Shown here piece by piece: positions 2,441 to 55,762 of a DNA stretch of 64,000 nucleotides (positions are counted from its first letter, which is position 1; each line of letters starts with the position of its first letter). A program made the translations under genes and the position numbers. Below the pieces are notes generated by a model. That model was not told the origin of the DNA and did not search any database. It saw nothing but the letters and a program-made list of their open reading frames with translations. Origin of the DNA: Diphasiastrum complanatum (Eukaryota > Streptophyta > Lycopodiopsida > Lycopodiales > Lycopodiaceae); NCBI GenBank assembly GCA_029204225.1, contig MU831981.1, positions 29,284-93,283 of the forward strand, given 5' to 3'.

Positions 2441-4129
<1,689 letters not shown>

Positions 4130-5795: not shown

Positions 5796-6110
<315 letters not shown>

Positions 6111-6480
6111 TGTATGTGTGTGCGTGTAATAGACTATTATTTTTGAATTGCTTGTGTATGTGACAAAGATATTCAAAAAAAAAAAAAAGAGCAAGAAGAG
6201 CGAACAAGCTTGCACTCAAGCTTCAAGCTTACCAGTCAGTTTATGTTGTTTCAAATTTTTGATTATTTGAATACATTACCCAACATAGTGAAAAAGTCAA
6301 ATGTAATTCATCACTTTCATTTTTTAAAAGCAATGTCATATTTTATCACATACACTAGGAATTAATTAGTATGAAAGAGTGAAATGTAGGTAAATAAAAT
6401 TCTCAATCCTAGGAAAGTGTGTAGCCCTTACTTTTCTCCCATTAAAGGCCAGGTTCTAATCTTTCCTTGAATGGAAAAAC

Positions 6481-6918
6481 CTATACGTCGCAGGGAGGGA
6501 ATATGAGGTGACATCCTGAAATAGGACATAACCGTAAGGTTCGGGTATTGTAATTATGACATTCAACTCTAATTATAATAAAAGTATCGTCATTTTTGTC
6601 ATTCTCATCATCACACAAGTCTTGACACTCATCTGAATCTAGGTCTAAGTATAATCGTAGGTTTTTTATCATGTCTCTTTGATAATGTGAGGTACCCTCA
6701 TATTCAACCTCCTCCTCTTCTAGTTCTATCTCATCCAAATGTGGGGGCCTCAAATTACCCTCAATTTGGCCTTGTACGATCGTAGTAATCTCATCATTTG
6801 AAATTGTATCTTCTTCTCTTGTCATTTCCATATCATTTTCAGGTTCTTCCAAAAGTTCAAAATTGGGTGGTGGTTCGTCATGTGTATCCAATATTACAAT
6901 ATCTTTTCCTTCAAACAC
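6481..6918 (-). pseudogene. Acidic C-terminal ORF of the CACTA element
   Basis: 145-codon ORF rich in Asp/Glu (ELEEEEVEYEG, DLDSDECQDLCDDENDKND) lying between the DUF4216-like region and the 3' terminal repeats. It fits the acidic tail commonly seen after DUF4216 in plant CACTA transposases. Its 3' end is present in copy B at 54.00-54.12 kb. Not an independent host gene as far as can be seen. Confidence 0.5.
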
Positions 6919-9535: not shown

Positions 9536-12000
9536 TAGAAAGCTAGATCCTCCTACTCAAGGGTGGTATTTCACATATGATAAACAATTTTTTGCTATTA
9601 CAAATGCACTTAAACTCTGGAGAAGTACCAAAAGGATACGTCAAATTGTATTCATGATGCCTTATGCAAGATTGGAGAAGTTAATCAATTAAGCTTTTCT
9701 AAGATTCAATCTAAGTTGTATCTATCCTATAAATATTTGTGTAAGACCGACATGCACTTCGAATAGATGTCTTGGCAAATAATTCTAGATCTAGCATTAG
9801 GGGAACTTCGGACTCAATATGGCCCTTTAAGAATGTAGAAAGAGAGCATCATTAGACTGCCCAACTTCAATTTCAGGCAGCCACTTTTGAGATAAACCAA
9901 TTACACTAAAATTCAAAATGAAGTGGGTGGGAAACCCAAGGCTGTCCTCGCGCATATGTCATCGCGTCGCATCATGCCTCGCCACATGCGGAAGGCAGGT
10001 GGAGTGAGCACATGTGGAGGAGGAAAATAGATTGCCTCTAGTAAAAGAAGTGTAGCATCTCTTTACACCATTACGTAGATCATGAAAAATTGCACACTTT
10101 TTCTTTTTGGATCACTTCAATCCAACACATAGTTAAAACATTATGGCAGTTTGAAGATTCATACCCTACCTGATATCGGAGCCGAGCGACCAATGACCTA
10201 TTCACACTGAACATAATGCTCTGTTCGCGTGGCTGAGATATTGTAGCATCCGTTTACACCATTGCATAGATCATGAAAAACTGCACACTTTTGCTTTTTG
10301 GATCACTTCAATCCGACGCACGATTAAAAAGTTATGGTAGTCTGAAGATTCATACCTTACCTGATATCGGAGCCGAGCGACCATGACCTGTTCTCATTGA
10401 ACATAATACTTTGGTCGCACGGCTGAGATATCGGAGCCAAGTGACCCATGGCCTTTTCTCACTGAACATAATGCTCTGGTCGTGTGGCTACGATATCAGA
10501 GCTGCGCGACCAGAGCATTACGTTCAGTGAGAAGAGGCCATGGGTCGCTCAGCTCCGATATCAAGAAAGGTATGAATCTTCAGATGGCCATAACTTTTCA
10601 ACCGTGTGTCGGATTGAAGTAATCCAAAACGAAAAAGCGTGCAGTTTTTCATGATCTAAGCAATGGTGTAAACAGATGCTACAATATCTCAGCCACGCGA
10701 CCAGAGCATTATGTTCAGTGTGAAGATGTCATTGGTTGCTCGGCTCCAATATCAGGTAGGGTATGAATCTTCAAACTGCCATAACTTTTTAACCGTGCAT
10801 CGGATTGAAGTGATCCAAAAAGAAAAAGTGTGCAGTTTTTCATTATCTACGTAATGGTGTAAAGAGATGCTACACTTCTTTTACTAAAAACAATCTATTT
10901 TTCTCCTCCACATGTGCTCACTCCACCTGCCTTCCGATGGTGAGGCACGACGCGACACGACGACATATGCGTGAGGACATGGCCTTGGGTTTCGCACCCA
11001 CTTCATTTTGAATTTCAGTGTGATTGGTTTATCTCAGAAATGGCTGCCCGAAATTGAAGTTGGACCGCCACCGTTACAATCTAGCACACATGAAAATACA
11101 CCATTGGGCCATGTGGACATACAACCTTTGAAAAGTCAAAGAAAGCATCTTTATAAAAGGCCCTTTTGGATTCAAGAGTTCCCGTGATGTAATATACTTC
11201 CAATGCAAAATACCAAGATTTTCTTCGAAATTAAAATTCTAAAAAATATTCTATCAAAAATGGATTATTTTTCATAATAAAAAATATATGTGTGCCAGAG
11301 AACAAAAGAACTAGGGCGCAAATATTGCAAGTGTTATGACAGCCCGTGTGCCAAACACCCACGCGCACAAAAACACTCGACATACTTTTCAAAAAAAAAA
11401 AAGGTCGAAACTAAAAAATCAAGTAGAGGCATAACGCAAATGCAACCGATGCATATGTTTTGTAAATGAAACTAAAAGAGAAGGCCATTGACTTATTACT
11501 TCCATTGGAAATTATCAAAAGAAAATGATAAAATATTTTCATGGATTTTGTGATTGGACTTCCTCAAACAAAAAGACAAAATGATGCTATTTGAATAACA
11601 ATTGACTAACTAACTAACACAATGCAATTCATTGTAACATATATCTATCCAAGCTTCTAAACTTGCATTAGTTTTCATGAAAAAATTGTTCATGCTATGT
11701 GGATTGTCAAATGATATTGTTAGTGATCAAGCCAAATTTTGACATATGATCTGTAAGAAATTATAGACCAAATTAAGTCTAGGCTCATCAAATCATCCAA
11801 AGTCGGATGGTCAGACTGAGCGAACAAACGAGTCAATTGAAGATACACTTCATCCACATGTTTCCAAAAAACAAAGATTGGAAAAGGCACCTCTCAATAA
11901 TTCAATTGGCATATAATAGTACGTGTGCCACTTGTTGTAATAAGGGCTATGTACTTGGGCCTAGAGACTCCTACCCTATTAGTATGGATTGGGAGTGAGG
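9536..12000 (+). mobile_element. Gypsy retrotransposon remnant, split by a foldback
   Basis: RNase H motif WYFTYDKQFFAITNALKLWR at about 9570-9630, then integrase pieces after the foldback: DKIFSWIL (about 11530) and the block HPKSDGQTERTNESIEDTL (about 11795-11850), followed by a shifted frame WKRHLSIIQLAYNST. Many stops. Reads plus strand. The sequence at 9861-11063 interrupts it. Confidence 0.7.
9861..11063. repeat. 1.2-kb foldback (long inverted repeat) with nested 190-bp units
   Basis: The left arm begins CCAACTTCAATTTCAGGCAG (9861) and the right arm ends with its reverse complement (AAATTGAAGTTGG, 11051-11063). Centre near 10495, where GCTCTGGTCGTGTGGCT faces GCTGCGCGACCAGAGC with almost no loop. 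Each arm holds about two tandem copies of a 191-bp unit (starts 10051 and 10242 on the left, mirrored at about 10678 and 10870). Arms differ by scattered substitutions and about 60 bp of length. No ORF. Inserted in a Gypsy remnant. Confidence 0.9.
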
Positions 12001-14948: not shown

Positions 14949-17900
14949 CATGATTGCACTAAGTGTCTAGCCTAGAAAAAATTCAACTAATGCTTCTACT
15001 TCTATGAACCTTGCTTGTTTGAAAAAGCTTCCAAAGTGGTATTTAGAAATATTGATGATAGTGAACCTTTGAAACAACCTGAAACCAGTGAACAACGTTC
15101 AACTAAGGTTAAGGCAACGACAACCAAAGAGGTCTATCAACTTTGCATCAATGACTATTATTCTAAATAGTGATGAACTTTATACTTATGAAAGCATTTA
15201 AGTAAGATACTCAGAGGAAGGCTATATAGGACGAATATGAATTCATTATAATGAATTTTGGGGAGGTCTTGTGGAGCTTCCTCAAGGTAAAAAGCCTACT
15301 GGAAAAGGTGTAGGTATTATAAGACTGAACTTTCTGCATGGACTGTCCAAACAGATACCAAATGTACTGTATGTCTCGAATCTAATGACCAATTTGTTGT
15401 CAGTCGGTCGTATTACTGATCTAGGACATAAGGTAGAGTTTGGGACAGATTCTTGTAAAATTCTTGACAAAAGCAAGAGAGTTCTTGCACTCGGAAAGAG
15501 GCAGGGATATCTCTATAAGCTCACTCATTGTTGTTCTACGACTGATTGTGCTTTAAGTAGTTCAGTATCTAGTAAAGAGTTGATGTGGAGTTGGAAGTAT
15601 AAATCTCATGCTCCCCTTGGCAAGCATTAAGTATGTCTTGTGGCAAAAAGTTATGCTCAAAAGGAATGTATCAATCATGAAGAAACTTCTGAATCTGTTG
15701 TTAAGATGAACACCAGTTGTTGCTTATTGGCTAGAGCATCCCATATTGATATACTTTCGATTCACATATTGCTCAAATGGATGTTAAATTGTATTTGTGA
15801 ATGGCATTCTTGAAGAAGAAGTTTACATGAAAAAAGGCAAAGATCGTCTTGTTTGAAGCGTCATACAAAAGCAATCTTCAAGTGCTTGGCACTCACATAT
15901 TGATGACTCTCTCTTAAGATTTGGTTTCTTCAGAACTGAATGTGCTACTAATCTCTACATCATGCATGAGGAGGTGAAAATATTCTTCTTATTGTTTTTG
16001 TGGATGACCTGATTATCAGCAACAACAAACACTCCACTCAACAAAATAAGAAGTCTTTCTCTTCAATTTGATATAAAAAATCTTTGTGAACTTCATTTTT
16101 CTCTTGGAATTGAAGTTTGACATCAACAAGACTCACTCAAGCAAAGTATGTTGAAGAATTGTTGAAGCAAGTCCATATGCTTGATTGTAAGCCTATATTT
16201 ACACCAATGGAAGCAAACCTCAAGTTGACTAGCTTTGGTGATAAAGGTCTAACAGAGAGCTAACCATACCACGAGCCTTCATAAAGAAAGATGTCTAATA
16301 AGAACAACATACTATCAATGAGAGCTGGTACAAGCTAAATATATGGATATAATATCTGTATGTTTGTCTATGTTTTATTGTAAAAAATGTCATGTTATTT
16401 CTAGTGGACCTAGTTAGTACTATGTTTCTGGAGGGGTGTGAAAATCTGTGATGAATGACAAGCTTAAGTAAGCCATAATTGTATACTAAATTGCTGTTTG
16501 AGATACCAGAAAGCTTTTGCATGTCTACTGTATCTGCTCTCTCTGAGCTGACTAAGAAGCAAACTCATTTGATAACTTGAGAGAGAGAGAGAGACACCTT
16601 GTTCTGACCGACCATCCACTGTTATCCTGAACTGTCATATCAGGATCATATTCAGGTTCTTCATCAAAATCATCACCCTCGTCATAGTAAAAGACATCGG
16701 CATCTGCATGATTCATAAGATTCATAAGGACATCAAACAAAAACATGGTTGCGTGCAGCCTGATACGACTTACCTTTGCCTTTAACCTTTAGACATTTGA
16801 AGTAAAACGGTAAGTAATTATTTGGCATATAAAACCTAGCAGTCTAGATGGTACTGAACTCATTATATTCTATGGAGGGGAGGGGGAGGCTTGGGGTGCT
16901 ACATGGAATAATCACAAAAACAGACATAATTGAAGCTCTATCAGGTTACAGGGCCCAGGATCTTTTAATTTACAAGGTAGCTTCTTTCCATATCTGTTTT
17001 GGTTGGGTGAGTATTACACTAGCAGATGTGATCAGAGGGATCCCCAGATAGTGTTTTTTTGAATAGATGACCATTCACAATAGAAGAGTACTCTAAAGTA
17101 GATAGTTCATGCAAACAAGGATGTTGAGGGAGACACTCTTGAGAACATCCTCCTATGCAGCTCTTCGCCCCTTCTTACTCTAAGTGCATTTACAAGTTGG
17201 AACCATACACAGTTTTAGAAAAGTACAATCACCACTGGAACACGCAAACCATGGAAACCCAGGTAATTAGTCAAGCAAAGTAAGCTGTACCCAAAGGTCA
17301 CTAATGAGGAGACATAGTTCACCTTCTAGCATTGCAGATTTACACTTACTCGGTAAGTTCCAAGCATAGCAATAGTACCTGTGTAATTTGTGTCTTCAGG
17401 AAAATCAAGAACCTGTAACATGTCAAAAAAAACCATAAATAGATCAGCAAGTACATTCGGTTTACATCAAGCATAACTAGAAAGGAAAAAAGGCCCCATG
17501 TGCTAGAGAGCTACATACTACGCAATCGTCCTATTTCAATGGAGGTGTATGTGACTGTTGTCATATGACATACAAAAAGTAGTACTTTTGAATGAAAAGT
17601 CCACTGAACACGTACTTCTCCAGATGCTTCGTCTTTTGGTTGTAGAAGAGCAGATGGTTCAACTTGAAGCACGGATGTATGATTTTCTTTCTCAGCTTCC
17701 TGAGGTAGTTGACTTTGTTCATGTGCACCTTGTATTGGCACTTGAATATCCTTGTCAAATCCTCGTTGGCTTTCCTTGTCTTTGAGTTGTATTGGCAGCT
17801 CAGTTTCCCTGTCAACTTCTTGCACAGGAATTCGAGATTCTGTACTAGCTTCTTGCACATCTATTTTTATTTCCATTTGAGATTCTTCCTGCACTTGAGT

Positions 17901-20900
17901 ATCCTCACTGGTTTCTTGAGCAGGTAGCGTACATTCTGTGCTAGCATCCGGAATAGGTAATTCAGTTTCCTTGTTAGTTTCCTGAACAGGCTTCTGTGTG
18001 TCCTCATCACTATCTTGCTCAGATGTTTGAATTTCCTTGTCAGCTTCATGCACAGATATCAAAGTTTCCTTGCGCGACTCTTCATCCACCATTTCCACGA
18101 AAAAGTTTTCTGTTTCACTACCGACGTTTTGTGATTCTGGAACCAGTGTTGTAGGTTCACCCGTGGACAATGTTTCACTAGAACATATCAGGTCATTTTC
18201 TAGCCTATGTACAGCTTCCTGGACCACTTCAACAACCTTAGTAGACTCACATGACGTATCTACTTCTGCTCTCAGATCTTCCTCCCCTATTCTAGGCTTT
18301 CCCTCAATCTGACCTTGTACTTGTTGCCCAACATCCATTATTTGTTGTTCAACATCCATGGTTTGAACAGTTTCTGCTTCTATCACTGGTGTAGAAGCCA
18401 AAGCAGGTCCCATCCCAGATGATTCTAAAAGAGCAACTGGGCAAGTAGCTGGAGCAAGTAGCAACAAAAAGCAATACTTCAGTACCCAGTTCAATGCCAT
18501 CAAAGTGAACTTCCTATGGAGATAGTCATTTGAAAATTTTTGCATTATTCGATTTAAAACTACATACACAATGAAAAAACACACACATTGTTGCTCACAA
18601 ATGGCTGCTTCTGAGCACAATGGATCTCTAACTGAGAAGGCCTCTTTTTGTTCTTGCTCATTTTCCATTGCCTTTGAATGAACAGCCTCTGAATCATGAG
18701 ACTCAGCCTCAACAAGCTTAGGCAAAGCAATTGTTGTAGCTGCTGACACCTCTGCTCCTACGCTAACTTCATGTACTATGTCATTGTGTGGCGAATTTTC
18801 AATGCAAGATGCAGGAGAAATTTTTGCTCCACCAACACCAAAAACACGATGATAAAGCTCCCGAATTTCCTCATTCAGACCTGCGCTAACAGAATGAACA
18901 TTAATGACAATCAAGCTATCCAATGAGTCAGAAGACAGATTCAACATAACAGCTGAACTATCAAGTGCCAATAAGACAAGAAGTTGTGAAATAAAAGGAA
19001 AACTTGAATGGAATATTATCAGCAATAAGGTTCTTTTTAAGGTGAAATTATAGGAAAAGAATCAATCCATCATCATTAACTAGCACGTTAAAATTTTAAC
19101 CAGATTAATAACAACAACAACCAGACCGCCTAAACAAAAGAGAATGATTTCCTACGATTTCTAACCCCTGTTCAGCATAAGTTTCCCAGTCTATCTCAGA
19201 AAATTTGATGCACACACATGCAAAAAAAGGCATCACCATACAATGTCCATAAACCACAGAATGTCATTTCGTACCAAAAGCTTTGGGAACATTTGGCTTC
19301 TAAGGTAAGGAGTGTTCAAAAAACTAATTCAACTATCCCAAATCCCAGATGCAGATTCAATTTGTTCTAGTTTACTTCATGTGTTCTTCTTTTACTTGTT
19401 TCATCTAACAATTTCACGCATAGGTTTTGGAGACGTTTATATATGCTCCTACAGTTACCACATACTTGACATGTACTTTTATCTCTCTTGCCTTACCACA
19501 TACTTGACATGTACTTTTATCTCTCTTGCCTTTTGGCATGAAAAAGACATTAATAGAGCTTTCTCTCTCTCTCTCTCTCTCACTCTCACAGTAGCTCTCA
19601 TGGCGCGTTTCATGGCTCCACGTAAGCGTGGGGGAGGTAACTCCCCCCGCTCTCCACCTCATCCAGGAAGCAGCCCCAACGCGACCTCCAGCGTGGCTGA
19701 TTCTAGCGTTTGCAGACCTCCAGCTCCAGCGCTACCATCGGTGGCCTCCAGCGCATCTCCCATTGATGCCTCCAGCGCTGCCTCTATCTCCAATATTGTC
19801 ATCACCTCCAGTGCACATCACCTCCAACGATGCCCATCGTTGTTTTCAACACTGTCTCTGCCTCCAGCAATGCTCCTACCTCCAGCGATGTCTCTGCTTC
19901 CACCTCTGCCTCCAGCGATGATGGAAATAGCTCAAACCCTGTTATGAACATCTCCAGTGCTGCTGGGAACGCCTCCAGTGCTGCTGCAATTGACTCCATC
20001 GCTGGGGGGACAGTCAGTGTTGTCCCTTCCGATCCTTCGTCGTCTGCTGCCTACCTATCTTGCTCTACCAAAAATGCCCCTTAGGGAGACGACATCTACA
20101 CGCCAAGGAAAGCATTTGAGGGGTACCTAAAAGCAGAAGGTGGATGCGCTACGATCCGAAATACAACAGCTTAAGCTGACTATGTCCACTTTGCTCCAAG
20201 ACAATATGGCTCTCAAACAGAAAATCCAGACATTGTAAGGAACGCCATCCCCAATGACAAGTAAAATCGATGAGCTAGAACGTCACCTGAGTGAACATAA
20301 GGAGGCTACAAAAACTTGGGCTTCCTTATTTCATAAAGAAGAAGGTAATACCGCCCATATGTCTACTGTTATCTCAGCTACCATCTCTGAAGAAAAATTA
20401 TGCGATTCCAAAGCTCTCTATGTTCGAGTTCGAGGTGTTCTCGACACTCAAGATGCCGTGAAAGAAGCAAAATCCTTCTTAGATACTACTTTGAGTTTCA
20501 ATACAAATGGATTGGATAATGCTTGGCGTACCGAAAAAGACAATCAACTCTCATTATTCGCTTCAAAACAAAAGAAAAAAGAACCAGTCTAAATTAAAAG
20601 GCACACAGATTTTCTTGGATGAGGATCTTACTTTTATCCAGGTTGAGGAACGCAAGAAAATCTTTCAGGAGGCTAAAGCGTCGGGACACTTTGCTATTTA
20701 TCGGGATGGTCAGGTTCGATATGTGGATCGTGGTCCATCTACCTCTAATGCCTAGGAAGTTGGGGCTCTCAGGCATAGGAGCAGCCTGAGACCCCATCCA
20801 CATCACCCACATCATCTACGTATTGGTCTATGGAATTGTAACGGCATCCATTCTTCAGCAGTTGCAGGAGATTTAGAAGACTTCATAACACAGGGGGACA

Positions 20901-22380
20901 TCCATCTTTTCACTGAGACTCATGAGAGTCAGTTTCAAGGGCTACCAGAGTTTCATGGATTCAGATGGTTTTCGGGAGACTAGATCTGTAGGGGGCAAAG
21001 GTTTTGGTGGAGTTGCATGCTTATACAGGGACTCATTACAGCCTATCATTGATTTGGTTCGACAGGATGAGCATGCATGCAACATGTGGCTTCGATTTCT
21101 TGGCCGTAGTATTGGGCTTGATAGGGATTTGCAGTTTGCTATTTTCCACCGGAGTCTTCAACTTTTGCTGATAGTACGGGTCCCCCTTATGCTGATCTCT
21201 CATAAGATATTTTTCTTTATGCAAAGCGTGGTTATATACTTCTAGCGGGTGACTTCAACGCCAGGACCTCCTCTAGACAGTCAGAGTTTCATACGATCAC
21301 TGATGATCCCTTGAGGATACATGCCACGGATAGTACGGATATGGGGATTGATAGGACATTTGCTGATGATGGTGGCCCGGTCTCTACATATGGTGAGCAC
21401 TTTCTTTTACTAGGTGAGGCCCATGAGCTTGTCATTTCTATGGCAGGGGCCTTTGGGGGTCAAACCGGACTTTTATCGCTCCAGTTTCCTAGAGCTAGAC
21501 AGTGCTGGGGTCCCAGTTTTGACTCGTTACCTGGATAGTGGACTTTCACATTGCCTCCGATTTACACTGGGACAATTCCGAGTTTCCTCACACCAGCTAT
21601 ATGTGGAGACAGGGTGTTTCCAAGGGAATCCCTCACATGAGTAGACTTTGTCAAATGTGCACATTAGGGGAGGTGGAGTCAGAGGAGCATTTTCTTTTTA
21701 GATGCCCCATCTATTATGAGATCCGTGGACATTATCACTGTCTTTTCCGAGATTCTCCAATTACATTGCGCTCACTCATTTCATATGTTGATCCTCGATG
21801 TGTTGCATTGATGCTGCGTGAGATGTTTCTCTTCCGTAGAGATATTTGTCAGAGAGATCGTGATGGATACCATGACTCCCAGCAGACCCAGATTACCTCC
21901 TTTTTCTCTAGGAGACATTCCAGAGCATTGGAGGATGAGTCAGATATCTTATCTCGGGATGTTCACCGTGATCGCCAACAACGTACTGTTTCCAGACCAT
22001 ACACTATGGCTACACAAAGTCTTTGCCTATCTAGAGCTCACATACGCCAGCCCTCCTCGTCAGTTCATGCATCTTCATCATCATCATCATCTTCTTTCTT
22101 TGCTTTTTTCAGTAGTGGTCTTGCGGTGACATGATACGGCCTATCCTACAGCTCAGATGGTTACTGTATAGCATTAGATATATGATTCCCGTTGTACCAT
22201 ATCTCAGACTTTCATGTCTTGAGGGTAGATGAGATACTTTAGTTGTTTATTCTTGTTAGGTTAATATCTAGTTGTTGTTGTTTGATTATGGAGACATTTA
22301 TATGCTCCTTTTAGTATCTATCACACTTGAGATGTACTTACTTTGTCTTATATGCCTTTTGGCATTGAAAGACATTAATA

Positions 22381-22436
<56 letters not shown>

Positions 22437-25400
22437 CCCTTAGCCCATCCTTCCATCGCCCATCCTCTCTCAATGGCTCAGAAAAAGAGATTCTATAAAG
22501 TCCTTAACCAAGAATCCTATTCTAAGCATGCCAATAACAAGCAACACAAGGGAAACGGATGGTGGACAAACCAACCCAACCAATCCTAGATCGAACGGAT
22601 CTAGCCTCCAAGCTAAGGATCAATCTCATTGAGGAATGAGGCATCACACTAGCAGCATACGGCTACCAGTCTCACAATCAAGGATACACTGTGAGAGCCC
22701 AATAGGTATACTTATACCCTCCAAGGCCCATGCACCACTAGTAGTGCACTGTGACACCTCACTGGACACCTCTGCAACCTATCTGGGCCACGTCATCCAG
22801 TTCCCCAATGACTCACTGATAGACCCATACAAATCCACCCCATCATGAGTTTAGGCCTACAAGCATTAATTATGACCTTATACACATAAGGGCCCCAATT
22901 CCCTTATAGTCACAATTAAATTATGGGTTATCATGTAGGAAATCCGCTACCTTCTGAAACCTGATCGTACGAGTCTCTACCGAAATGAGTGATATAGGTT
23001 CAAAGCTATACATAAGTACGCATGGACTATAACCGGTAGCCAAATGCTATAACTCAATCTCCATCAAGGATAACTTCCTATCCAAGGAGATTGCTATCAA
23101 AATATAAATACATATTTCATCTGATCTTCTGATCACGTAGGTAATCCTTCTCTTAAACGATCAAGTATAACTAGAATCTGAACTATGATTCTCAATCATA
23201 ATTCTTCGGATTCTTGTCCCGTGATACCCTAGCATAGGCAACTCAACCAAGGTCATATACTCTTCCCAATGAGATTGCCACTGGAAAAATATGCTCGAAG
23301 CATTTTCTCCCTCACCTAATTTGTTCTTTTCGCCTGACCAATGGTCAGAAGAACTTAAGCTTAGAGTCGTTTCTTGTTTAGCAAATACGGCCGACCAAAA
23401 GTGACCAGTAAACCTTGGATCGCGATCGTTCATATTGTCACTTGGTAATTCGTAAAGTCTAAACAAACGCTCTACAATTACTTGAGCAAATCAGATGCTT
23501 TCATGGTAGTCCTTACCATCACAATTCTTAGAAGACACATTAAGTCCAACTCACTTACGATGCCTATATAAGGTTTGTAATCCAAAAAACGCCCTTACTT
23601 TAGCCATGGCACAAAGTGTCATTCCAAAGCTAGGATCCCATCTAGAATACGTCCAGATTCAATTATTCTTAAGTTCTTATCTAGAATAACTCAAGATTCA
23701 CCGGAACCTCATTACGTGGAGTTCTGACTTTTGGCAACCAACAACTATCCAACTCTCCTGAGTCTTCCAGGATAGCATTCTATCCTTTCCAATCGAGAAA
23801 AGATAAGGCCAAAAGTTCTCGTGTATTCTATGCACATAAACCTTTAAATGAAATCAAACTTGACCCATAAAGGTTGCGACTTGTAAGCAATACATTTCAA
23901 CAATAATATCCATAAGAAAGATTATTTTGTTGATTCAAACAACTAACTCAGAAGTAGCGCTCCTGACTCGGTTAGTTGTATCAGATTTAAAAAATATTTA
24001 AATGTGTAGGTGTGGTACCAAAACACCACATTTAATTTGATTCTAAATCAATTCTAGGTCAATAAGCAATTCTTAATGAGAAATTACTATGACCTAGCGA
24101 GAAATTGTCTCTACACAATTTCTCATCATGCCTATGTTTTAACAACTAGTTTGTGCATGCAAATAAACTTAGTTCAAGGAATCCTTTGTAGATCCACAAG
24201 ATTAAAAGTTTGTACAAAAGGTTTATGATCATAGGATATCTCTAATGATATCACCTGATCTGTACACAATGCTTTCTTAACCAAGAATCCTGTAACTTGA
24301 TTATCCTCTAAGAGAGAATATTTCTCAAAGAGTGCTATTCCACAACCGAAATCTCAACTGGAGATTATCTCAAAAGAATATATTGTTAGCATGAATTTCC
24401 TTCCTTGCATCAACCCACGGATCTCGGTCCTCACTAAGATCAAGTTGATTACCACCAACAAGGAACAGGTTTCAAAAAACCACCATCTTGCAATAGAATT
24501 TCTTAGTTCTGACACAAATCAATCGGACTTGTAATTAGCCACTCTTCTACTACAAGAGTGTTTTCTAATTTCCTAATTCTTATATGTTCAAACCAGATAT
24601 CAAAATATTCTATCGTTTCTAATTCTTGAAATAGGTCTGTCATCTATTCATATGGCTGATTCCTCCTGGAATCTATGATAGATGTTTCTCCTCGATAACA
24701 CTCTTTTCTTCCTACTTCTCCCCCTTTTTAACAGGAAACAACACGAGTTTCCAAGGGGTGCATCTCAATCTAGATTTGCCTTAGGAGAAGTTTCAAAGAA
24801 GAGATCCGAGAAAATCTTGAAAGTCAAGAAAGGTGTTGCATCATCGTAACCAAATACTAATGACCCAACACATTTTCATGAACGACTTATCAAAAGATCT
24901 TCTTCGTTACCAACACTGAGAATTGACCTGTAAATCAAAAAAGGACTTTTTGAAGATTCATGTGAGGAAAACATTTAGAAAACGATTCCATTAACCATTA
25001 CTGTGACATCGTCCAAGGTCAACGGGTAATAAAAATTACCTTCCAAGGAATCACAAGAAAACGGGTTAATTAATGTTTAAGAAATTCACCAATATATCTT
25101 TTGTAAAGAAATAGCTTGTCGGGTTTCCGGTTTTGTAAATTTGAGATATCAATAAGGGGTCATGACCGATATCTCAAATTTCCGGACAAAACACCCGTTT
25201 TATGACCCATAGTATTTGGCATCAATTAGATTTACGGCCTTACTACGGTCAACTGATCCAATTATTTTTAGATTTTCAATTTGGAATTTGCATCCCATAA
25301 ATCGATTGAGATTAAAACCACCGGTACCATTGAAGTTCTCAGGAATTTCACATTCCAACTTCAGTGTACCAATTCCAACTCACTGAGGAATGAGTGGGAA

Positions 25401-26447
25401 TAAACTCATGATTTTTATTGGCTTCACTTATTTTTACTTTCATAGCGAGTAGGTATGCCTCAGCTTCAACCATATCAAAAAACAGCTTTTTTCGTTTATT
25501 TTTAGTCTTTTCCATCTTAGGCTTCAGGGCCGTTTGGCCGTGCGACTTTTTCGCGAGGCAATCATGGTGCTATCATAGGCCTTGGCCACACGGATAGCAT
25601 CTTCCAAAAATTGGAGGATATTCCGTTTGGACTCCTTTTGATAATCAGCTGGCAATCCAAGAACGAACTACCATTGCCACTGCACCAACTTCCTATCAAA
25701 AAGCAATATCTTGGCCAAAAAAAATCCAAAAACTTCTGGACGTAAGTGTCAAATTCTCGGTTGCCCATTTTGCAATTAATGAAGCGAATTTTCAATCAAA
25801 ATCCTCAATTGTGACTAAAGCCTTACAGAATTCCACCAGGAATCAGTCACTGGTTGCACACCACCACGAGGAGGCCTTGCCGTCAAGAAACAACAAAACT
25901 GACAATATCGCTTTTCTTCTGGGACGTTGCGTAAACTAAAATAGCTCGTCCAACGGTTTACCCAGTCTTATAACTTCCGGGCGTTTGAATTTTCTTTCAC
26001 CGGAAAATTTTTTCGGTTTAGTAGCCCAAGTTGTTTGAATTAATGGCTTGTAATTAATTGAAGAGATTTTGCATTAGGCTTATACCAATGAATTCCGCAA
26101 ATGGTGTTTAAGAAATAACACTACCAAAAATGTTCACGCATCAAAATCTAATTCATGCAATTTTTTAAGCCATTACGATTCAATAATTTAACTTAACTGC
26201 ATTTACTGATTCGTAGTCCATTATGACTATTAGAAGCCCATGGAATACTTGAAAAATGATAAAATGAAAAAACTTCCATAACACCTTCAATACCCCTCCC
26301 TCCCCCTTCTACCTAACTTGGCCATCAAACTAATACCTTAACCAAAAAAACTAATGGTTGACTAAAAGTCATATCCCCCCCCTTTCTTTCCCCTCATAAA
26401 CCATATCGGGGCCCGAGCAACAGGATCGCGACCCACTGCCAGCCCGA

Positions 26448-26497
<50 letters not shown>

Positions 26498-29400
26498 GGC
26501 CAAAAGGAGGGAGGTGGGCGCGCGTTTTTGCCCTTCCTTCTAACCCAGCTTCATGCAGGTATTAGGTGGCTGCAAGGCACTGTCAGGCGCAGATTTTGAG
26601 GCTCCTTTCTTCTTCGAAGTTTTTTTCTTTATGTAAGAAGCTTTAGCATAGAACCTTGTTGTTATGGAAGCATCAGGGGCACTTTTAGATCATCATTACC
26701 TTCCTAAAGCCTGAGCCCTGTTTTCTATAGTTCTAAAATGCATACTTTTCATGCAAAAATCACTTTCTACTGCTGTTTTTTGCAGTAAGAAATGCTTTAA
26801 GTCGTTTTTTAGTTTGCTTAATCTTCAATTTGTTTCCACAAATGCATAAGCAATCATTCATTTACAGTTTAGCATGCCTAGACTGCATTATGGCTGAGAA
26901 ACAGGGTAGATGCTGCCCAATTTTTCTCTGAACTAAAAATTTGCAGGTTTGGCCATTCTTCACACAAAATAGGCTTCCAAATGACCCAAACCATCACAAT
27001 AATGGCCTTACTGGCTCATTAACCTGCAAACCACCATTAGTTTGCTGGAAAACGCAACAAAAACCTGCAACTCCATAAAGAATCGCCATGCAAAACCTGT
27101 AAATCATCCACCAACACTCACAACAAGTGGTTAGTCCATTTTTGCATCTATTCTTGCCTTTCTCACCGATTTTAAAGCAAAACCGGTTCCACAAAAAGCA
27201 ATAGACAGTATCCAAAGTCTCATAAACCACCGTTGCAAGAACAAGAAGCCATAAGAAAAAAAAAACCAGCATAGCCTCAAATTGAAACCGTTGCCATCAT
27301 AAAAGTGCTCTTAATGAAGTGATTCAAGAAAACTAAAACTTACTTCCTTATACCAATTTGAAGTGCTTAAAAACCGAATCGATTGTATACCTGGTAGTGC
27401 ACATACCACACAACCGATTGCACCTCAAAAAAGTGATTCTCGGGAAGAAGGATTCAAATTTCCACCATTTGTTGCTTACTCCAAAGATTCCTCAAGAAAT
27501 GTTGAGATTCCGTATCAAACAATGGAAAAATCCCCACACAATTCGAGATTCCTTCTTGAGCACAAATCAATGGCAAAACGTGCTTAGAACTGGCTCTGAT
27601 ACCAATATAAAGTCCTTAACCAAGAATCCTATTCTAAGCATGCCAATAACAAGCAACACAAGGGAAATGGATGGTGGACAAACCAACCCAACCAATCCTA
27701 GATCGAACGGATCTAGCCCCCAAGCTATGGATCAATCTCATTGAGGAATGAGGCATCACACCAGCAGCATACGGCTACCAGTCTCACAATCAAGGATACA
27801 CTAGTGAGAGCCCAATATACCCTCCAAGGCCCATGCACCACTAGTAGTGCACTAGTGAGAGCCCAATATAAGAAACACAAAAACAACAATTAACGCTAAT
27901 GAGCAATCGAAGTGTAGTGGGCATGTCTCGGAATAGGCAGTGGTATCTCCCTCTGACAACTCCAAATATGCTCAGAAATACCACTGCTATGTCAAAAAAA
28001 GCCCAGAACTCTCCCATAGAGAGCCATGACAGCCAGAATGATATCCGATGAAGTCTCTGAATGAGCAAGGAGCGTGGGACAGAATTGAAGGCTTTCTTGA
28101 AGTCTACAAAACAACAGTAAACATGTTCCTTCCTATAATTAGCTTCTTTGATAAGAGCTCGGAGGGTGAAGATATGATCAGAGGTGGAGTAATGAGCTCG
28201 GAGGGTGAAGATATGATCAGAGGTAGAGTAATGAGCTCGGAGGGTGAAGATATGATCAAAGGTGGAGTAGTGAGGTCCCAATGCATGCAATCTCTTGGAC
28301 TCTGCCTCTGTACTTACTGCAGACTGAAGGATGGTGCCATATAACTTCATGAGAACATGCCCAATCATGATAGTGCGGTTGTTACCAGAGATCATGGGGT
28401 CGCCATTTTTATGGATAGGATGGATGATGTTGGTGCACCAAGAGGATGGGAAGCCCGCGACAACGGCGTGGTTAAGGAGAGTGGCTAGGGTGGGAGCAAG
28501 AGTGTCGGCAATGTGGATCAGTAGCTCAGATTCAAGATCCTCAATGTCTCTGGTTCGGTGAGTTTTCAGTTTCTTAATGGCCGCAGGGACCAAATTAGGG
28601 GTAAAGAAGGTAAAGTCAGATGGTCGTGGAGAGATAGAGATAGGTGTGTCTGTGGGTATGGTATCTAGGCTAGCAGCGTAGTCGGTCCAAATACGGAGGT
28701 CGTCTAGGAGAGGGGGTGGGGCACGAGGGATAAACTCAGGCCAAAAGGCACCAGAGGAGGAGCTGAGAAGAATGTCCACAAGTCGTTCTCCTTCACAGTC
28801 ATCATAGGCATATCTTTTACAACGGAGTGTTTGGTTATAAGATTGACGTGAGGAATGAAGGTGATGGGGGGAATGGAAACGAGCATGAGTGGCAGCTTGG
28901 TGAAGGGAGTGGCATTCCTCAACATACCATGGTAGATGGAAAGGGTGAGATGAATGACGTGGTTTGTTGTTATGAGGTTTAGATGGGAAGGCCAGGGAGG
29001 CAGCAGTATGAAGAGAGGTGGTGAGAAAGGCAGCTTGAAATTCCAGTGGACTGTTATGGGGAAAAGAGTGGAGTAATGAGGCAAGGGACTCTTCGTAGGG
29101 TGGTGCATAAAGGGAGTGGAATGTGTATCTAGGTGCACGAGGTAACGTGGAGTGGGATGGGGGTTGAGGGGGCGGGAGGTGGCCAATAGCGAAGGAAAGA
29201 AACAAATGATCAGAGAGACTAGTGGGGGAAATATGAAAACTGTTAATGAGGGGAAGAGGGCATGAACTCGAAGCTGGCCCGTGGTATCGTGAAACTCAAT
29301 CCTGGCATTAAAATTCCCTATGAAGAAAATATGCCCCCGCTTTGTGAACGAGATGATATCCAATGAGAGATCCAGGTAATGTGATCCGATACCCTTAGCA

Positions 29401-29765
29401 AAAGAGGAAGAATCTGGAGGAAAATAGCATCCAGCAATGAAGATGTCCCTGTCCAAGCCGATATCCTGTCCAGTAATACGAATCCAGATGTAACGTGCAT
29501 GCTCATCATGCCTGATAAACTCAATCATCTGATGAAGGGACTCTTTGTAGAGACAAGCCACCCCTCGAAAACCTCGGCCACTAGCTGATCTAGTCTCAGA
29601 TCTGCAGTAGAACGAGGTGGGGGGGGCTTCTTTTGGGAGCCATTGCTGGCTGAAAAGCCGGGGGTCGAGCGAGGGAGGTGGGGTGGGCGAAGGACTAGGA
29701 GGGCGCTGCCATCGCTAGGAGGGCTGCCATCGCTGGAGAGAGGGCTGCCATCACTAGGCCATCGC

Positions 29766-29802
<37 letters not shown>

Positions 29803-32800
29803 GATGTGTACACCAGAATCTGATCCCAAGCATCAAAATGTGGAGGTTCTCCTCAGGGAGAGAAATCAATAAACTACATATCATAGAAGCCCAACCCCTG
29901 AAAGCAGTCTCTTGGTAGTCATGAATCTGCCTCCCTCGCTAGTTTGAGATTTAGAAATAGATTCCTTCAACTCCAACTTAAAGACATAGGTCCTCTGGAG
30001 TTCAAAGTCTCCCCTTTGGGCTAGTGAAGAGGATCTCATTCTTATAACACCATGTGAAATAAGGATCCAGGTGAATCTTACTTATTGCAAGCTTATGGAT
30101 GATAGCACCTCCATGTACGATCCATGTACTTATTGCAAGCTTATGCATGATAAATGCCATGTACAATCCATGACTCCATGAATTTCTTTAGTAATTACTG
30201 ATTTATTATTGCAATAGTGAAAATTTTGACACCACCAAGGGCAAGTAGATGCAAGAGCTTTAAAGTTTCAGTAAAATCAATTCCTCTTTCCAAAAATATG
30301 AAGACAAACCAATCAGTGCAATCAAAGGATTGACCTTTGATGAAGAATAAACATTGAAGCCGCCTAGAAAGAACATTGATTATAAGAGTACTTACCAAGA
30401 AATGATGGCTCACAAAATATTTGTTGACCATGGGCATCCTTTTGCATTGCCCAAATCTCATGCATTGTGCAAGGAGCCTTCTTGCGTATGCGTCGTATGT
30501 CATTAGTATTTGCTTGTTGTTGTCGCATCACCCTGTCAATTTAGGAAAATTAAGAATTTTCAGCAAAAAAAAACCTCTAGGCCTAACACTACTTCCACAA
30601 CCAGCTACATTGCAATGAATCCATATTTTGATGTTTATATAAGTGATTGATTTTGACAAAGTAAGTTCCCAAACAACTTGCAAAATCCTAAGGCAAAGGA
30701 CTTGAGAATCTTGGAAATGAGTTTTAGTAAACATTGGATTACGAACATCACATAACTCGTGTTCTGATCACTAACGTGCAAAATATTCTACGGATATCAA
30801 AATGTGCATTCAGAACGCAGGTATATCTTACATTTCCAACCTCAAGAAAACATGCAATCGTTATTTCATGTTCGTATTTGATGCAGAAAATTCAAATGTT
30901 CAAAAATATCACAGGGGTACTTATTGGCAGCATAATCAATGAAGAAACTTTTAAATGGTCATTAAGGAGGGCTTGGCTTAAATGCATGTGAAGCTCCTCT
31001 ATAAAAAGTCAAATGGACTTCCTTGTCAAAAAAAAATTAATAAAAAATTGCATCAGAACAGTCGAATTTCTATAACACTTTAAAGAGGGCCCTGCGACTA
31101 CAACCTTGTATAGATTATCTTGCAACAGAACACTCTCTACACTTTAAGTCTACAAGTTCACTGTACCTCAACAAAGAGAACCGTAAATTTGTTATCAGAA
31201 TATTTCAACAAATTATTGAAGTAAACAAAAATCTGGTGGAAGACATAAATAGATTAATCAAAGTGAATGAAGAATTGAAAGGTAGAGGAGATAACATTGT
31301 TGCCCTGACAAAACAAAAAATCACAGTAAGCAAGCTGAGACTATTGAAGCACTGAAAACTGAAGTACAACAATATGAAAGTGACATAAGGCTCTAAAAAA
31401 GGAAAGATGCGATCTGAGGACAGAAATGGAGAGGCTCCAAGAGGGGTCAAGACATAACAGGAGAAGGTGAATGGCCATGTGACCCTTAAATGGGTTGGTA
31501 TGACTCATTGAAGAGGCACAAGAGACAAATTCTACATGGGGAAACTGCAACTGTGAGGAGGGAGAACAGACATGGAAGTAATTTTTTCTCCAGCCATTCT
31601 GCATACCACGTTTTGAAAGATTGGAGAGATCTTGCTACATGATCAGCCTACATGTCTTCATTGTGTGCAGGTCTTTTGGCACTCTCCCTCTATAAATGAA
31701 GAGTAATTTTATGACATGTAACTCGTTTTTTATGTGAAGTATGACAAAAACAAATATTTGAAGTCATGAAGCAATGTTCTATTTGTGGATGTCTATGGTT
31801 GATTGAATCTGAAGTGTTTAGAGCCTTGACCATAATCATGAGATGCTTATACCTTATTCTATGCAAATGAGAGTTTACACATGGACTTTAATCTTACACC
31901 TATTAATGATTCCCTGGTCACTGAAAGAAAACCATTCTGATGAATATTCTTCAACACTGTTTGATTCCTTCTTAGAAGTAAGTTCTATGGTTTTAACCAT
32001 CTCTACTTTTTTCCTCTTGTATACATGTCCACAATCTGACTTTGGGCTTTCGTATTGTTGGTCGTAGTTAAGTATCTTAGCTAGATCTGAATAAGTATCT
32101 CAGATCAGAAGTATAATTTCAAACAGCTAGTCGACTCCCAACCCAATGTAGTTTGTCGACGAAGTTCTTTGGTGTGGCGGCTGGCCAGCTATCGAAGGCT
32201 CAATTTGGAAGGACCAAAAGCCAAAACAATCAAAAAACAGCCAATTGGAATCAATTATGGACAAAAAAGGGAGTGAAACTAGCTCAAACATGATAAAAGA
32301 GTGCACAAATGTTGCATTTCTCAATTACTTTCATCCATAAATACCCGTTTTGGTTTTTTCAGATATGTACCCATATAAACCGTATATCAGCAAAAATAGT
32401 TCACAGCTGATAGTATGCTCCTTCGTGACATTCCCATACTCTGACAAAAAAATCAATCTGCTCGATGCTGCCTCTGTTTGGATGGTTCAACCAGCATGTC
32501 CCATTAAAAATAATAAAAAATAATTAAAAAACATAAATAAAAAAATAAAAACTAATCAAAAAGCATTCAAAAACCATCAGAACTAATTGACATATTAAAA
32601 AAAATTGGCATGCTCCGGACCTTGATCAGGCTTCCTGGATCATGTTCTGGCTGGATCACATTCTGGAATGTGGTCAGCATCTATGCTTCATATTAAGCAA
32701 CAATACTTCCCAAGGGTGAAAAATGCTAGAATAGAGCTGCATAAGTAGAGATAAGGACAAGTGCAATATTCAAAAAGAAGATGATACTAGCCCTGATGAA

Positions 32801-35800
32801 GCAATCATGGAGAAACATCATCCACAATAAGAGTGTTACATCCCTGGCTAACTACGGTTAGCCTGGAACCATAGATCCACTTCGTTCTGGAATGATGCAA
32901 TTTGATCTTGTTCCAGAATGATCATTTTATAACGGTTCTGTAAATCTGCATTATTCCGAATTGGCACAATGTTTACCTTTTTTTAAGTTCTTTTTCTGAG
33001 TGGATGTTCATACTGGTGCACATTCTCTTACAGTCCAGCTTTTCTGTCATAATTAGGATCATACACATTGTGCTGCTTGCATGTGTCATATCTTCGTATT
33101 TAAATTCAGCTTCAACCTTATTATAGCTATCTTCCAGCTTTAAGCAGAAATTTATTTACAATGAAATACATGTTGTTACAAGTTTCAGGTTTCTTTCTAA
33201 GTTCACATAAGAAATATCTTTCACATTCTATTTCCAAAAGATTAGTACGCGCTAATATAAACCTTTTTCATCATATATCTTAGAGCTTATTTCACAGAAA
33301 TCTATAAGGAGGCTACCGGTTTCAGAAAAGGGCATGCTACACCAAGACCATCCTTTCAAAAATCATGATCCAAAATATGTAAGTATGTATTAGACCCTGA
33401 ATTATCTCTAGTAAGAGAGCACTACAGCTTCATAGTAAGTGACAGACGTATACATACTCGCCATGCAACACCATGGAGACATCACATATTGGCTTCCTCT
33501 TGCGCGTGGAAGGTTTTGGACCAGGTTTGTGCCGCTTTCGGGCCGGTGTTTCGGATGGGGTTGGAGCTACGTGTATAGCAGGTGTACTCCTTCCTGTCAA
33601 GAAAATATTCTTAATAGCTTACAACCTCCAAATAGGCAAATGAATTGAGATGAGTGACACACAATGTGATGACTGAGTATGCAAAATCTGGGCAGAACTA
33701 ATAATACACATAGTTCCTTAAGAACTGGGATGTAAGAGTCAAAATCCCGTATGACAAGAGAAATTTGATTGTCACAGCTGTAAATGCTTAACCTTGATGC
33801 AATTCCGAAGAGAGGTTTAGAGTTAATGGATAGAAGCATCACTTGATGCTAAAGACTCCTAAGATCATAATCACTCCATGATTTCATTAGAATTTTGGTT
33901 CGAAATGCATGCATTGTAAGGACTTCTAAAAGAAAACGATGACAGACCACATGCAACTGACCTAAAATAGTCGCAAGTACATCATTGTCAGCAGGAAGTT
34001 GCATTGAACTGGGTGCAGAGAAAGGTGATGGTCTAGGAGTAAAACTAAAGTTGCCAGCTCTCATAGGGGTTTCTGCAATAAGTTGAACCTTTTCCACTCG
34101 TGGTATCTCAGCATCCTCTGTAGCCTTATATGAACCTTCCTCTCTTCTGTCCTCTCTTATCTCAGCATCACCTCTCGCTACTTTGTCTTGTGTATAGTCT
34201 TCCTCAAAACTACGATCTCTAACACCAGAAAAAGCATCAAGCTCTTGCTCAGTAACTTCCGCTGCCGATCTTACTTTTTCAATCTCCAAACTCTCCTCAC
34301 ATAAATGCATTCTTTCAGATGAGAGCTGTTTTTTAAAGCAAATCACTTTCTCAGCTTCTGAAACCTCATCTGATTTCAACCCTTCATGTTTGTGAGCATT
34401 TTGACTTGTTAACACCTCTCTTTTGGGGAGCTCCATGGCTGTCAAACTAGCATTTTCCCCTTCACTCATTAACACACCTCTTTGGGGGAGCTCCATAGGC
34501 GTCAAAGAATCCAGATTTTTCTCTCCACTTGTTAACACCTCCCTTTGGGGGAGCTCCATAGTTGTTAAAGAATCTAGATTTTCCTCTCCACTTGTTAACA
34601 CCTCTCTTGGGGGGGGTTCCACTTTTGCCAAAGAATCCAGATTTTCTTCTTCACTAGTTAACAACTCTCTTTTGGGGGGCTCCATAGTTTTCAGAGTATC
34701 CATATTTTCCTCACCACTTGTTAACATCTCTGTTTTTGGAGGCTCCATAGTTGTCAAAGAATCCAAATTTTCCTCTTCCAATTGAACAGGAGATAGAGTA
34801 CTTTTCAATGTCTCTAGATTTTCGGGTTCTCGTGGCATATTTTCATGCTCAGTAAATCCTAGTTGATCCGATTCCAGGGTTTGTACTGCTGTAGAGGACT
34901 CAATGCGATCTTCAAGTTCCATCTGATCGACTCCAACAACTGAAGTAGAAGGCTCGTGATGTTCATGAAGGTCCATCAGATCCAGAGCAATTGCAGGAGT
35001 GGAAGGTTCATGTTGATCATCACAGTCCATCGGTTGAAAGTCTAAAGCATCATCTGCAGGTGTAGCAGGCATCGTCTGGAGGTCCAGAACATTGTCTGCA
35101 GGTGTTGATGGAATAACACTAAACACATTCATTCTGTCAGTAATCTGTTGAAATTTATGATATAATATTATGTAATTTATGTAGCAGCATACTAATTTGC
35201 AACCGCTGGACCCAGAGTTTCAAACCTTGAAATAAGAGTCACCAACGATATCATTTTACTCAAAAAACTTCTTCAGATCCTGACCCAACCTACAACACAA
35301 ACATAACAAATTGGACTTACTCTTCGAACGGTGGGGTTGGAGCTGGGCTTGGGACAAGGTTGCCAGATTTCCCAAACAATAGGTCCTGTATACAATTGCA
35401 TGAGGACTTATCACCATTCCCCTAAGCTCATAAGTTTGATAGGAATCAGGATATAGTCTCAAAAAGTTGTGTCAAGACTATATTATGCAAAGAGCATCAA
35501 CACTTAAATCCATGATGAAAATACATGGCTACAGCTATAGTACCTTCAAAAAGTGCCAAGAAATTCACAACAGAATTACAAAGTACAGAGTATATTTAAA
35601 CCTCATCAAAGTCAAGGCCCATCCTAGCAGCATCACTATCCGCAAACCTTTCTGCAATTTCGATAATAAACATAAGAGCAATCACACTGCACACTGAGAT
35701 AATAATAAGCCTCAGAACTAACCAAAAATGAGAATTGAAGGCAAAATTTAACGACAGCCATCCTAATGTGTAGAACTAAAGAATTGGGTCAATATGCACA

Positions 35801-38800
35801 ATAAGAGTTAAAAAAAGAAAAGAAGAATATGTCAGACGTAGATTCAAGCAATTACCATCAAGCCCAAACTGAGAATCCAGATAAACGCTATCCTCCAGAG
35901 GATCCTGAAGTGTAATTTGTTCCCGAGAAGTGACATGATGATCCACAGAACTGCAGCTCAGTAGAAACAAAATATTTGGCTAAATGCCTTTGTGCTTTAA
36001 ATATTGCCTTTCTTCAAAAAAGAGACTTTCAAGTTTGTAAACAAGGATCAAAGCTATATTCTTTCCATGACAAATTCAAAAATAAAACTAGATTCATTGG
36101 CCATAAACGTCATCAGATCTACCATCTATGGCTGTCAGATTGTTGTCTTGGCCACAAACTGAATGTGACTACATAGCATGCAATAAAGAAGAGGAGCAGG
36201 AGCAGGAAAAGACCTCTTCGCCAGAAGTGAACTTTCTCTTTCGGGAAGAAGTTCAAACTCATCAAGGTCAAAAGTCTCAGGGAGTGTAATAGAATGAAAA
36301 GGAGCAGTTGCCGCTTCTGGAGGAAGATCAACCACTCCCGAATGAAAAGCTTGCTTGATTTTTACTAAAGCCTCACTGCAGTCATGAAATAGATAGTTGA
36401 CCTTCCGGGAATATATTCTCACCACTCCCAGCAACAGATGCCCAGACAAGCGCAGTGCAATTGGTACTTCCGGAAATAGAATAGAGTCTTCAAAAAACAA
36501 ACAACGATTTGCTTTAAGAGACTCGTATAACACTCTAATTCAATGAGTTGGTTGTAGGTTTCAGAAGCCGGAAAAACCATTCAAAGAAACAGCTTTATAA
36601 ATATACCAAATTCAATCAAGCAAAATTATCTAGATCGTGGCCAGCACAACATTACATCACTGACTAAATGATCGATCAAATTCTAAATCACAATTTCACA
36701 TTTTGCTACTCTGATCTCATCACCTTACAGCTTCAAATCAAAATCAGCTGCTGATTTCCCCAATCAGACATTACTTTAGATTGATTGATGACTTGGTAAG
36801 AGGAAAACTAAGATGAACAATAAATTTGTAGAAAAATTGACATGTGGGGATTTGGGACTCCTCACATCCAGCTCAGATGTCTCAAATTTTTTGATAATTT
36901 CTTTTAGGCAATCAATTAACACGAACTGAATTTGGTCAAAATATCTGAAAATCAAGTAAACAAAAAATCAATCCTGCGAGTAGATGCAACTACTCACCCT
37001 GCACAAGCTATCTATGCACATGACTCAAGAGAGTTGCTTACTTAGACTTCAACAGCCCTATGGTTTCATCTTAGCAAAATACTAATCAGTCTTGTTGACA
37101 GAAACAAAGACTGAATTCCAGCATTAACTAACTGAACCATAGAATGCCTTCAAAACCAGAAAGACACAATTTAAAAACAAAGAGTTTAACTAGTAAACAA
37201 AAGCATACTTTAACATTAGCAGCATCAAATATCAAATGAGGAATTTATCAAAGAAACTACGTAATGGTCTTATGAACTTTGTTTCAACATTCAAACTCAA
37301 AATTCATCAAAAGAATCTTTCCAGAGTTCCTGCCAATGCTCAGCAGCAAAAGAAAAGGAAATTAGTTCCTGTCCTCTGACTTTGCACTCTGAAAAATAGA
37401 TGTGCTAGCCTTTTCAAAGATAATTAGCTAATCTACAGATTATTCTACATTTCAGGCATTAAATCATTTCGTCCTAGAAGCAACAATAAGATGGAGTTCA
37501 AATCAACCTGAATTTCTCAACTTAAATATATTGGGAACAAATGATGAGTTGATTAGGACTGACTTTTCTCTCCTTGAGGTGAGGAGTTTGACAGCACAAT
37601 TGAGGACATACAAGAAAATAAATAAATGTATTGAAAGGCTATCTAGTTGAAGAGGCTGATCATATCACATGTCTAAGAATTTTCAAGCACTGCAATTCGC
37701 CATATGGTGGCACTGATTTAAAACACCTCATGTCAGAATCAATGCTTCCTCTTGACCTGCCCCATCTTAATGGAGTCATCTTGGATTCAAAAATAGAAGA
37801 CAACACACAAAACAATGGCTATTAATTCCGTTCAAACGGAATGATCCAATCTCAATGCTTTAAGCTTAGGACTTCAATGATGTCTTTTTTAGCCCTAATT
37901 TGTGAAATGAGCTGTATTTGTCTGATCGATGTGTCGTAAGATGCTAGACTGTGTTTTTCAATGTCCACAAAAGAGCTGGAACTCTCTTTTAGCCCATACG
38001 GCACAATTTTAAGGTTTCTTATGTGTCACGCTCGCTTTTCACATCGGTTTAGCCCTAATTTCTAAATCTTTGATTTTTGCATCGGTTTAGCCCTAATTTG
38101 CAAGGTACTGAATCTTTGCATGGCTTGTGTATGTTTTGCAAGGATTTGAGGAATCACGGTAGCTGATAGGTCACATCGACGCCATGACGGTTGTTGGTAG
38201 GGGCATTTTGGCTGAGGTTGACCTCATACAGGGGGATGTGGCTACGTCTCATGGTTCAAGTGCAGGCAAATGGAGATGCTACCTACCATTGCGGTTTTAA
38301 GTTCACCGGGTCACCCCATTTACTACAATTGACCAGGCCAGATGGGCGGGGCATGGGTATATCAATGTGCAGCGCCGTTACAGATGCTGAGGTAGAGAGG
38401 CTGCGAGAGACATACGACCATGATGGGTCAGCGAGCCAGCCAGCCACTGAGACCAGCACAGAGATTTTTCCAACAGAGACGGCAGAGCTCACAGGTCCAG
38501 GGTGTAGGCCCTAGCCATGCAGCGGGGCCTAGCCACAGAGGGGCACTTGGGCTTTCTGCCACTCCATCAGAGCCCCCACGACCATCAACAGAGTGAGTTG
38601 TTGGTGTCACACCCCTAGAAGCAGGTCCCAATAAGGGTCGGGAGAGAGACACACGACCCGCCATGCCATTAGCAGATGCATCCCCCAATGCCCTGCCTCA
38701 TACCACTACAAGGCATGTTAGACCTCGGCCGCCGGCACACTCACAGCAAAGACATAGGTCGAGGGCACAACAGACTACATTGGACAGAGGGTGGCAGAGG

Positions 38801-53799: not shown

Positions 53800-55762
<1,963 letters not shown>

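Follow-up and report, generated by a model that had tools for sequence, protein, structure and literature searches.

Why do the ends of long interspersed nuclear elements (LINEs) fall so regularly on CT microsatellites? The question is raised by a 64,000-nucleotide (nt) stretch of Diphasiastrum complanatum DNA, hereafter the window (positions 29,284 to 93,283 of contig MU831981.1), which belongs to contig C463 in an assembly that totals 1.745 Gb in 5,176 contigs. In it, LINE copies abut (CT)n tracts, and a first-pass annotation proposed that (CT)n is either the preferred insertion target of this family or its own tail, into which later copies reinsert. Here, we conclude that both parts of this proposal are likely to be right: a LINE group in this genome appears to use (CT)n/(GA)n tracts as a preferred, although not strict, target. 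We favor this because both full-length and 5'-truncated copies start on CT at many element positions, some of them in non-LINE DNA, and because the tract is present in most placeable paralogs of an unoccupied site. The CT on the 5' side would thus be mostly pre-existing target, with older LINE tails as its commonest source, and hence the arrays run in one orientation.

LINE copies and CT tracts in the window

Judged from its domain matches, the family is a group of non-long terminal repeat (non-LTR) retrotransposons with an APE-type endonuclease and a reverse transcriptase (RT). Pieces of open reading frame (ORF) matched RVT_1 in locus L024 (E=9.4e-20; 71.6 bits, cut-off 29.6) and Exo_endo_phos in locus L027 (E=2.3e-12; 47.6 bits, cut-off 24.5), and in the latter an RVT_1 match slightly under the cut-off (E=5e-6) lies downstream of the endonuclease. 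The copies also show frequent 5' truncation, a fixed 3' end and no LTRs, as is typical of LINEs. No RNase H match was obtained in the five ORF pieces scanned, which are broken. L027 contains an apparent chimera at 3600-4122, where the 5' region of one subfamily is fused to the body of another.

Copy 1 (19425..19559, plus strand) is a 5'-truncated LINE 3' end of ~135 nt with an internal 38-bp duplication (tandem repeat 19455-19532). Its terminus, GACATTAATAGAGC (19546-19559), is followed by a boundary tract at 19560..19581 on the plus strand, in which the tract scan reports CT at 19562-19581. Copy 2 (19582..22383, plus strand) has an ORF1-like start, endonuclease pieces and a C-terminal CCHC-like region, and lacks the RT; its matches to Exo_endo_phos (E=0.03) and zf-RVT (E=0.024) do not reach the cut-off, and L020 carries ~1.5 kb extra at its deletion point. 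It ends in a predicted hairpin (22344..22374) and the conserved terminus GACATTAATAAAGC (22371..22384), and the tract scan places CT at 22384..22434 downstream, all on the plus strand. A possible further 5' end, copy 3 (22435..22493, plus strand), consists of a pyrimidine-rich leader and ATGGCTCAGAAAAAG. Between it and copy 4 lies an LTR-type element (22494..~27870, minus strand) with terminal repeats that are 94% identical and a primer-binding-like site. Copy 4 (27897..29767, minus strand) is an internally deleted LINE with an endonuclease and a partial RT (RVT_1, E=1.2e-4; Exo_endo_phos, E=0.027; neither reaches the cut-off). At its 5' end is a CT tract at 29768..29800 on the minus strand, read as GA on the forward strand, and the homology search found no LINE homology upstream of this tract. 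Copies 2 and 4 share 66% identity over 300 aligned columns and are therefore placed in different subfamilies; both have had the RT lost or reduced by internal deletions.

The first-pass annotation had placed three 5' ends directly after (CT)n, and the tracts and coordinates are as it gave them; as a LINE 5' end, copy 3 is weak, since 73 of 2000 shuffles score as high as its alignment to the 5' region of copy 4. The two 3' ends said to share one terminus differ there by one mismatch, and alignment shows them to be true homologs, with a score of 40 against a shuffle mean of 17.4 and 0 of 2000 shuffles reaching it. The head-to-tail order of copies 1 to 3 on CT tracts likewise stands for the tracts, with copy 1 reduced to a 3' fragment and copy 3 to ~60 nt. 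We also considered whether the 3' end of copy 4 continues past the LTR-type element into 22435-22497 and rejected this, as 201 of 2000 shuffles were equally good. The whole array recurs on contig C13 at 99.6% identity over 3049 columns, and that copy is an allele or duplicate.

Chance density of CT does not account for such junctions. The window contains 15 CT/GA tracts that measure at least 12 nt, and at this density a random 5' junction has a probability of p=0.00047 of lying 0-4 nt downstream of a CT tract in the right orientation. The suggestion that new CT tracts are seeded by the family found no support; in the window, 12 of the 15 lie away from these LINE ends.

The array may sit inside a gene. 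A RAD21-type cohesin gene is suggested on the minus strand (17514-36539) by a Rad21_Rec8_N match at 36138-36539 and acidic ORFs at 33852-35219 and 17514-19061, and one of its introns would contain the LINEs.

Insertion junctions across the genome

We collected further copies by their 3' ends and, separately, by their 5' leaders. The best 40 of 1498 candidates were scored for a tail query with CT and the best 40 of 1509 for one without, and 20 long loci (L009-L028) and 20 short loci (L029-L048) were examined; as top scorers, these first 40 are biased toward copies resembling the query. A second sample comprised 20 further 3' ends, hand-chosen among the 102 genome places with an exact 24-mer end. 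Merging duplicates by eye and with BLAST left 29 and 20, i.e. 49 independent loci. The 5'-leader pattern, blind to CT and designed on one subfamily, found 10 places, six of them independent.

In four of these six full-length 5' ends, the junction is on a CT run 12-64 nt long: 12 nt in L014/L020, 25 in L019/L079, 50 in L051, and 48 and 64 in L077/L078. The other two start on a 35-nt pyrimidine tail with an inner 9-nt CT run (L075/L076) and on a 10-nt CT run downstream of the ORF2 end of another LINE (L010). For full-length copies, the proposal of a CT target therefore withstood the check on 5' flanks. The tracts beneath four of the six starts are the tails of other LINEs, and that of L019/L079 lies in non-LINE DNA. 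The elements begin variously with CACGCGCGCGGTTCC, GTTCC, GCTCC, GCGACTCC, GCAGTGATGG and TGTGATGG. Because full-length copies start at differing points of the leader, the CT does not behave like a fixed 5' untranslated region (5'UTR), and we rejected that explanation.

Truncated copies extend the pattern. At 13 independent junctions, a 5'-truncated unit begins at a LINE tail or at most ~20 nt from one (L011/12, L024/25, L026 twice, L032, L033/38, L034/35/41, L040, L044, L053, L061, L067 and L074), with truncation points that range from ORF1 to the 3'UTR. The tail at the junction is short and (TTTC)n-like, rather than a long CT tract, in L032, L034 and L040. The 5' junction can be read in 18 main units, of which seven start on CT of at least 12 nt and two more, L010 and L050, on 10 nt. 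Against the tract density of the window, seven of 18 has a binomial probability of 1.6e-19, and six of 18, leaving out L027, of 2.0e-16.

These junctions bear on the idea that the CT is carried by the element itself, whose 5'UTR and tail would be CT-rich, with random insertion and arrays arising by joining through CT homology. Nearly all copies examined do have pyrimidine-rich 3' tails, and the 5' endpoints of L019, L077 and L075 lie only a few nt apart. Against this, the points of the element at which 5'-truncated copies meet CT are unrelated to one another, in L051 and L010 CT is reached ~13-16 nt deeper in the leader than in L019 and L077, and the empty site described below carries CT as well. 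We consider this explanation very improbable.

Arrays, an empty site and the tail

LINEs that follow a tail mostly share its strand. In the first sample, 23 of 40 loci (15 of 29 after merging) have a same-strand LINE in the 480 nt after the tail, and one of 40 has an opposite-strand LINE there; in the second sample, the counts are seven and one of 20. Over the 49 independent tails, this gives 22 same-strand against two opposite neighbors (sign test, 1.8e-5). The interval was counted from the end of the CT tract for long loci and from AAGC for short loci, and some reference sequences in the search were drawn from the same loci. Fourteen independent loci have no LINE within 480 nt; L013 and L023 have one within 1 kb, and none was found in the sequence examined at the other 12 (among them L009, the array of the window itself). 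The positions of the units directly show head-to-tail arrays with insertion at older tails, and this part of the first-pass annotation holds, with the tail better described as pyrimidine, often (TTTC)n, than as CT.

Such arrays might instead be single events of template jumping, in which the RT leaves the 5' end of one LINE RNA for the tail of a second, so that CT need not serve as a target. The structure of the arrays would suit this, with intact 3' termini in upstream units and truncation at many points in downstream ones. It leaves unexplained the 5'-junction CT in non-LINE DNA (L019/L079, L050, the first unit of L010 and copy 4 of the window) and the CT at the empty site, and some adjacent units come from diverged subfamilies, with ~70% DNA or ~40% protein identity. 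On balance, we think it unlikely. We give still less credence to false joins of unrelated LINE copies by the assembly at CT tracts. Long tracts are difficult to assemble and some arrays lie on small contigs; nevertheless, junctions with tails of at most ~30 nt exist (L032, L034, L040), and the same arrays are found at other places in seven sets (window/L009, L011/L012, L014/L020, L015/L016/L017, L024/L025, L075/L076 and L077/L078), which makes an artefact scarcely credible.

The empty site is that of L050/L030 (contig C1, near 26.92 Mb), a 5'-truncated LINE with CT on both sides, inside an LTR-type repeat. Its joined flanks match the repeat family, and 36 of 40 rows cross the join. Eight of 14 unoccupied paralogs could be placed by motif, and five of these eight (L085, L090, L091, L092 and L097) carry a CT or pyrimidine tract at the site. 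By eye, the 3' flank of L064 (contig C6, near 9.037 Mb) resembles the LTR-type repeat region that holds L050/L030.

A number of observations weigh against preferred insertion into CT. The 5' junction is not CT in nine of the 18 main units (L013, L015, L018, L021, L022, L023, L028, L049 and L054), nor is the 5' flank of copy 1, and in L027, counted above as on CT, recognized LINE homology starts ~100 nt past the tract. Two of the nine probably owe their flanks to later repeat insertions: the left flanks of L018 and L021 are high-copy repeats (199 and 2390 first-look candidates), and the repeat copies end a few nt before the junction in L018 (most of those listed) and no more than 5 nt from it in L021. 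In L048, and in L015 near 7560, a tail-less LINE end is joined directly to another LINE, an arrangement that is not predicted by CT targeting and that template jumping may account for. Some 5' endpoints lie so close together that the 5' CT may be partly element-borne. Three of the eight placed paralogs lack an intact tract (a broken one in L083 and L086, which are alike; L095 is shortened at the site), and the empty site is the only one found. In L029, L057, L060 and L072, the tail is a short (TTTC)n run, beyond which the DNA is ordinary. Finally, no convincing non-CT target-site duplication was seen in 20 loci or in a set of 12 boundaries; duplications of CT would escape detection, and L050/L030 is flanked by CT on both sides.

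At its 3' end, the family has a covarying hairpin, then GACRTTAATAAAGC, then a tail of pyrimidines that often passes from (TTTC)n into (CT)n. Its exact 24-mer form, an extension of the copy 2 terminus, occurs at the 102 genome places noted above (control, 0), and TYTCTYTC follows directly at 70 of them. Among the 49 independent loci, 41 tails have at least eight pure pyrimidines and 30 contain 16 nt or more of uninterrupted CT; of the eight tails outside the 41, seven are rich in pyrimidines but broken by single purines, and L048 is tail-less. Nearly all copies examined have pyrimidine-rich tails, and these vary in length and make-up. Many of them run through (TTTC)2-4 before turning into CT or ordinary DNA, which suggests a UUUC-like RNA tail, with long (CT)n probably derived largely from the target rather than the element.

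For the hairpin, the copy 2 end folds with z=-4.0 and copy 1 with z=-1.1 over a comparable stretch. Of 36 distinct tails, one was dropped as a mis-registered double of another row; in the other 35, 93.3% of cells in the two stems are paired with 16 double changes, and 0 of 500 shuffles have as high a covariation score, a figure that is not a probability, as the tails are related. With partners slid by +2, the covariation is 0.143 vs 0.157, yet only 61% of cells are paired. A hand-picked 16 of the 36 tails, some broken stems omitted, give 88.8% and 13 double changes. As far as alignment and folding can define it, this is a stringent-type (UnaL2-like) 3' structure, a covarying hairpin followed by a simple-repeat tail.

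How the target might be chosen can be outlined. The endonuclease would nick the GA strand, the pyrimidine tail of the RNA would pair with the exposed GA primer, where reverse transcription would begin, and the new tail would retain or renew the CT target for a subsequent insertion. It is possible, and we put it forward tentatively, that the RNA tail sets the target by pairing with the GA strand, and that many diverged subfamilies in this way share a self-renewing landing place, on which they build joint head-to-tail arrays genome-wide.

Other features of the window lie apart from these LINEs. An inverted, diverged repeat pair (5100-7551, minus strand; 53802-55773, plus strand; ~64-92% by segment) has several long CT tracts in each arm and showed no LINE homology in the homology search. 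There is a Copia-type RT match (RVT_2) at 4004-4640 on the minus strand, cut short at a 121-nt CT/GA tract, an imperfect palindrome of 1.2 kb at 9861-11063 (88%) that contains 191-bp and 65-bp repeats, and a match to class-I fructose-bisphosphate aldolase at 61666-62049, probably an exon. In the window, scans for Rfam families and tRNAs gave no match, and the best hit in a PDB sequence search had an E-value of only 0.69. The tail pattern had 0 matches in viral contigs, and protein queries against viral and genome contigs gave no confirmed relative.

Comparison with known systems

If true, this would be a LINE group of a large genome that combines a simple dinucleotide target with landing sites of its own making. 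It would offer a natural test for the idea that pairing of a LINE tail with the nicked strand determines the target. It would also explain why CT microsatellites and LINE ends coincide, which is relevant to repeat annotation and to microsatellite markers. Our search of the open-access literature, with subscription papers outside its coverage, found no description of a plant LINE that targets CT repeats.

Zepp, a LINE of green algae, targets poly(A) tails. Passages in PMC8226300 and PMC3446292 describe Zepp and Zepp-like arrays as arising from insertion into existing copies. The likeness lies in tandem arrays rich in 5'-truncated 3' ends and, probably, in this habit. Zepp forms one cluster per chromosome, at putative centromeres, whereas the 24-mer end is listed here on 22 of contigs C1-C23 (all except C20); further differences are the mixed subfamilies within arrays and the pyrimidine tail.

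Non-LTR elements that target simple repeats are known, as parts of PMC4640811 and PMC2887409 set out. Dong (TAA repeats), TRAS (telomeric repeats), Togen (TG repeats in fish) and some HERO elements share insertion into simple repeats with the present group, which we liken to them by behavior and not by clade; here, the target is CT, is not strict and is supplied in large part by the tails of older copies. RTE elements of Lepidoptera with microsatellite 3' ends resemble it in their short simple-repeat ends and many 5'-truncated copies. One of them has CTT/CT units at its 3' end. PMC2887409 portrays these RTE elements as lacking sequence specificity, in which they differ from the present family, and as having ordinary target-site duplications in their flanks. 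Hebe (PMC2861651) proved only loosely related.

Among plants, the L1 elements with stringent recognition of a 3' hairpin are alike in having a conserved hairpin with compensatory changes. Parts of PMC3747384 report that a Chlamydomonas short interspersed nuclear element partnered with RandI has a (CTTT)n tail, and that poly(A) terminates almost all flowering-plant L1 elements and (TTG)n or (TTGATG)n all RTE elements. Unlike these ends, the tail of the present group is (TTTC)n/(CT)n.

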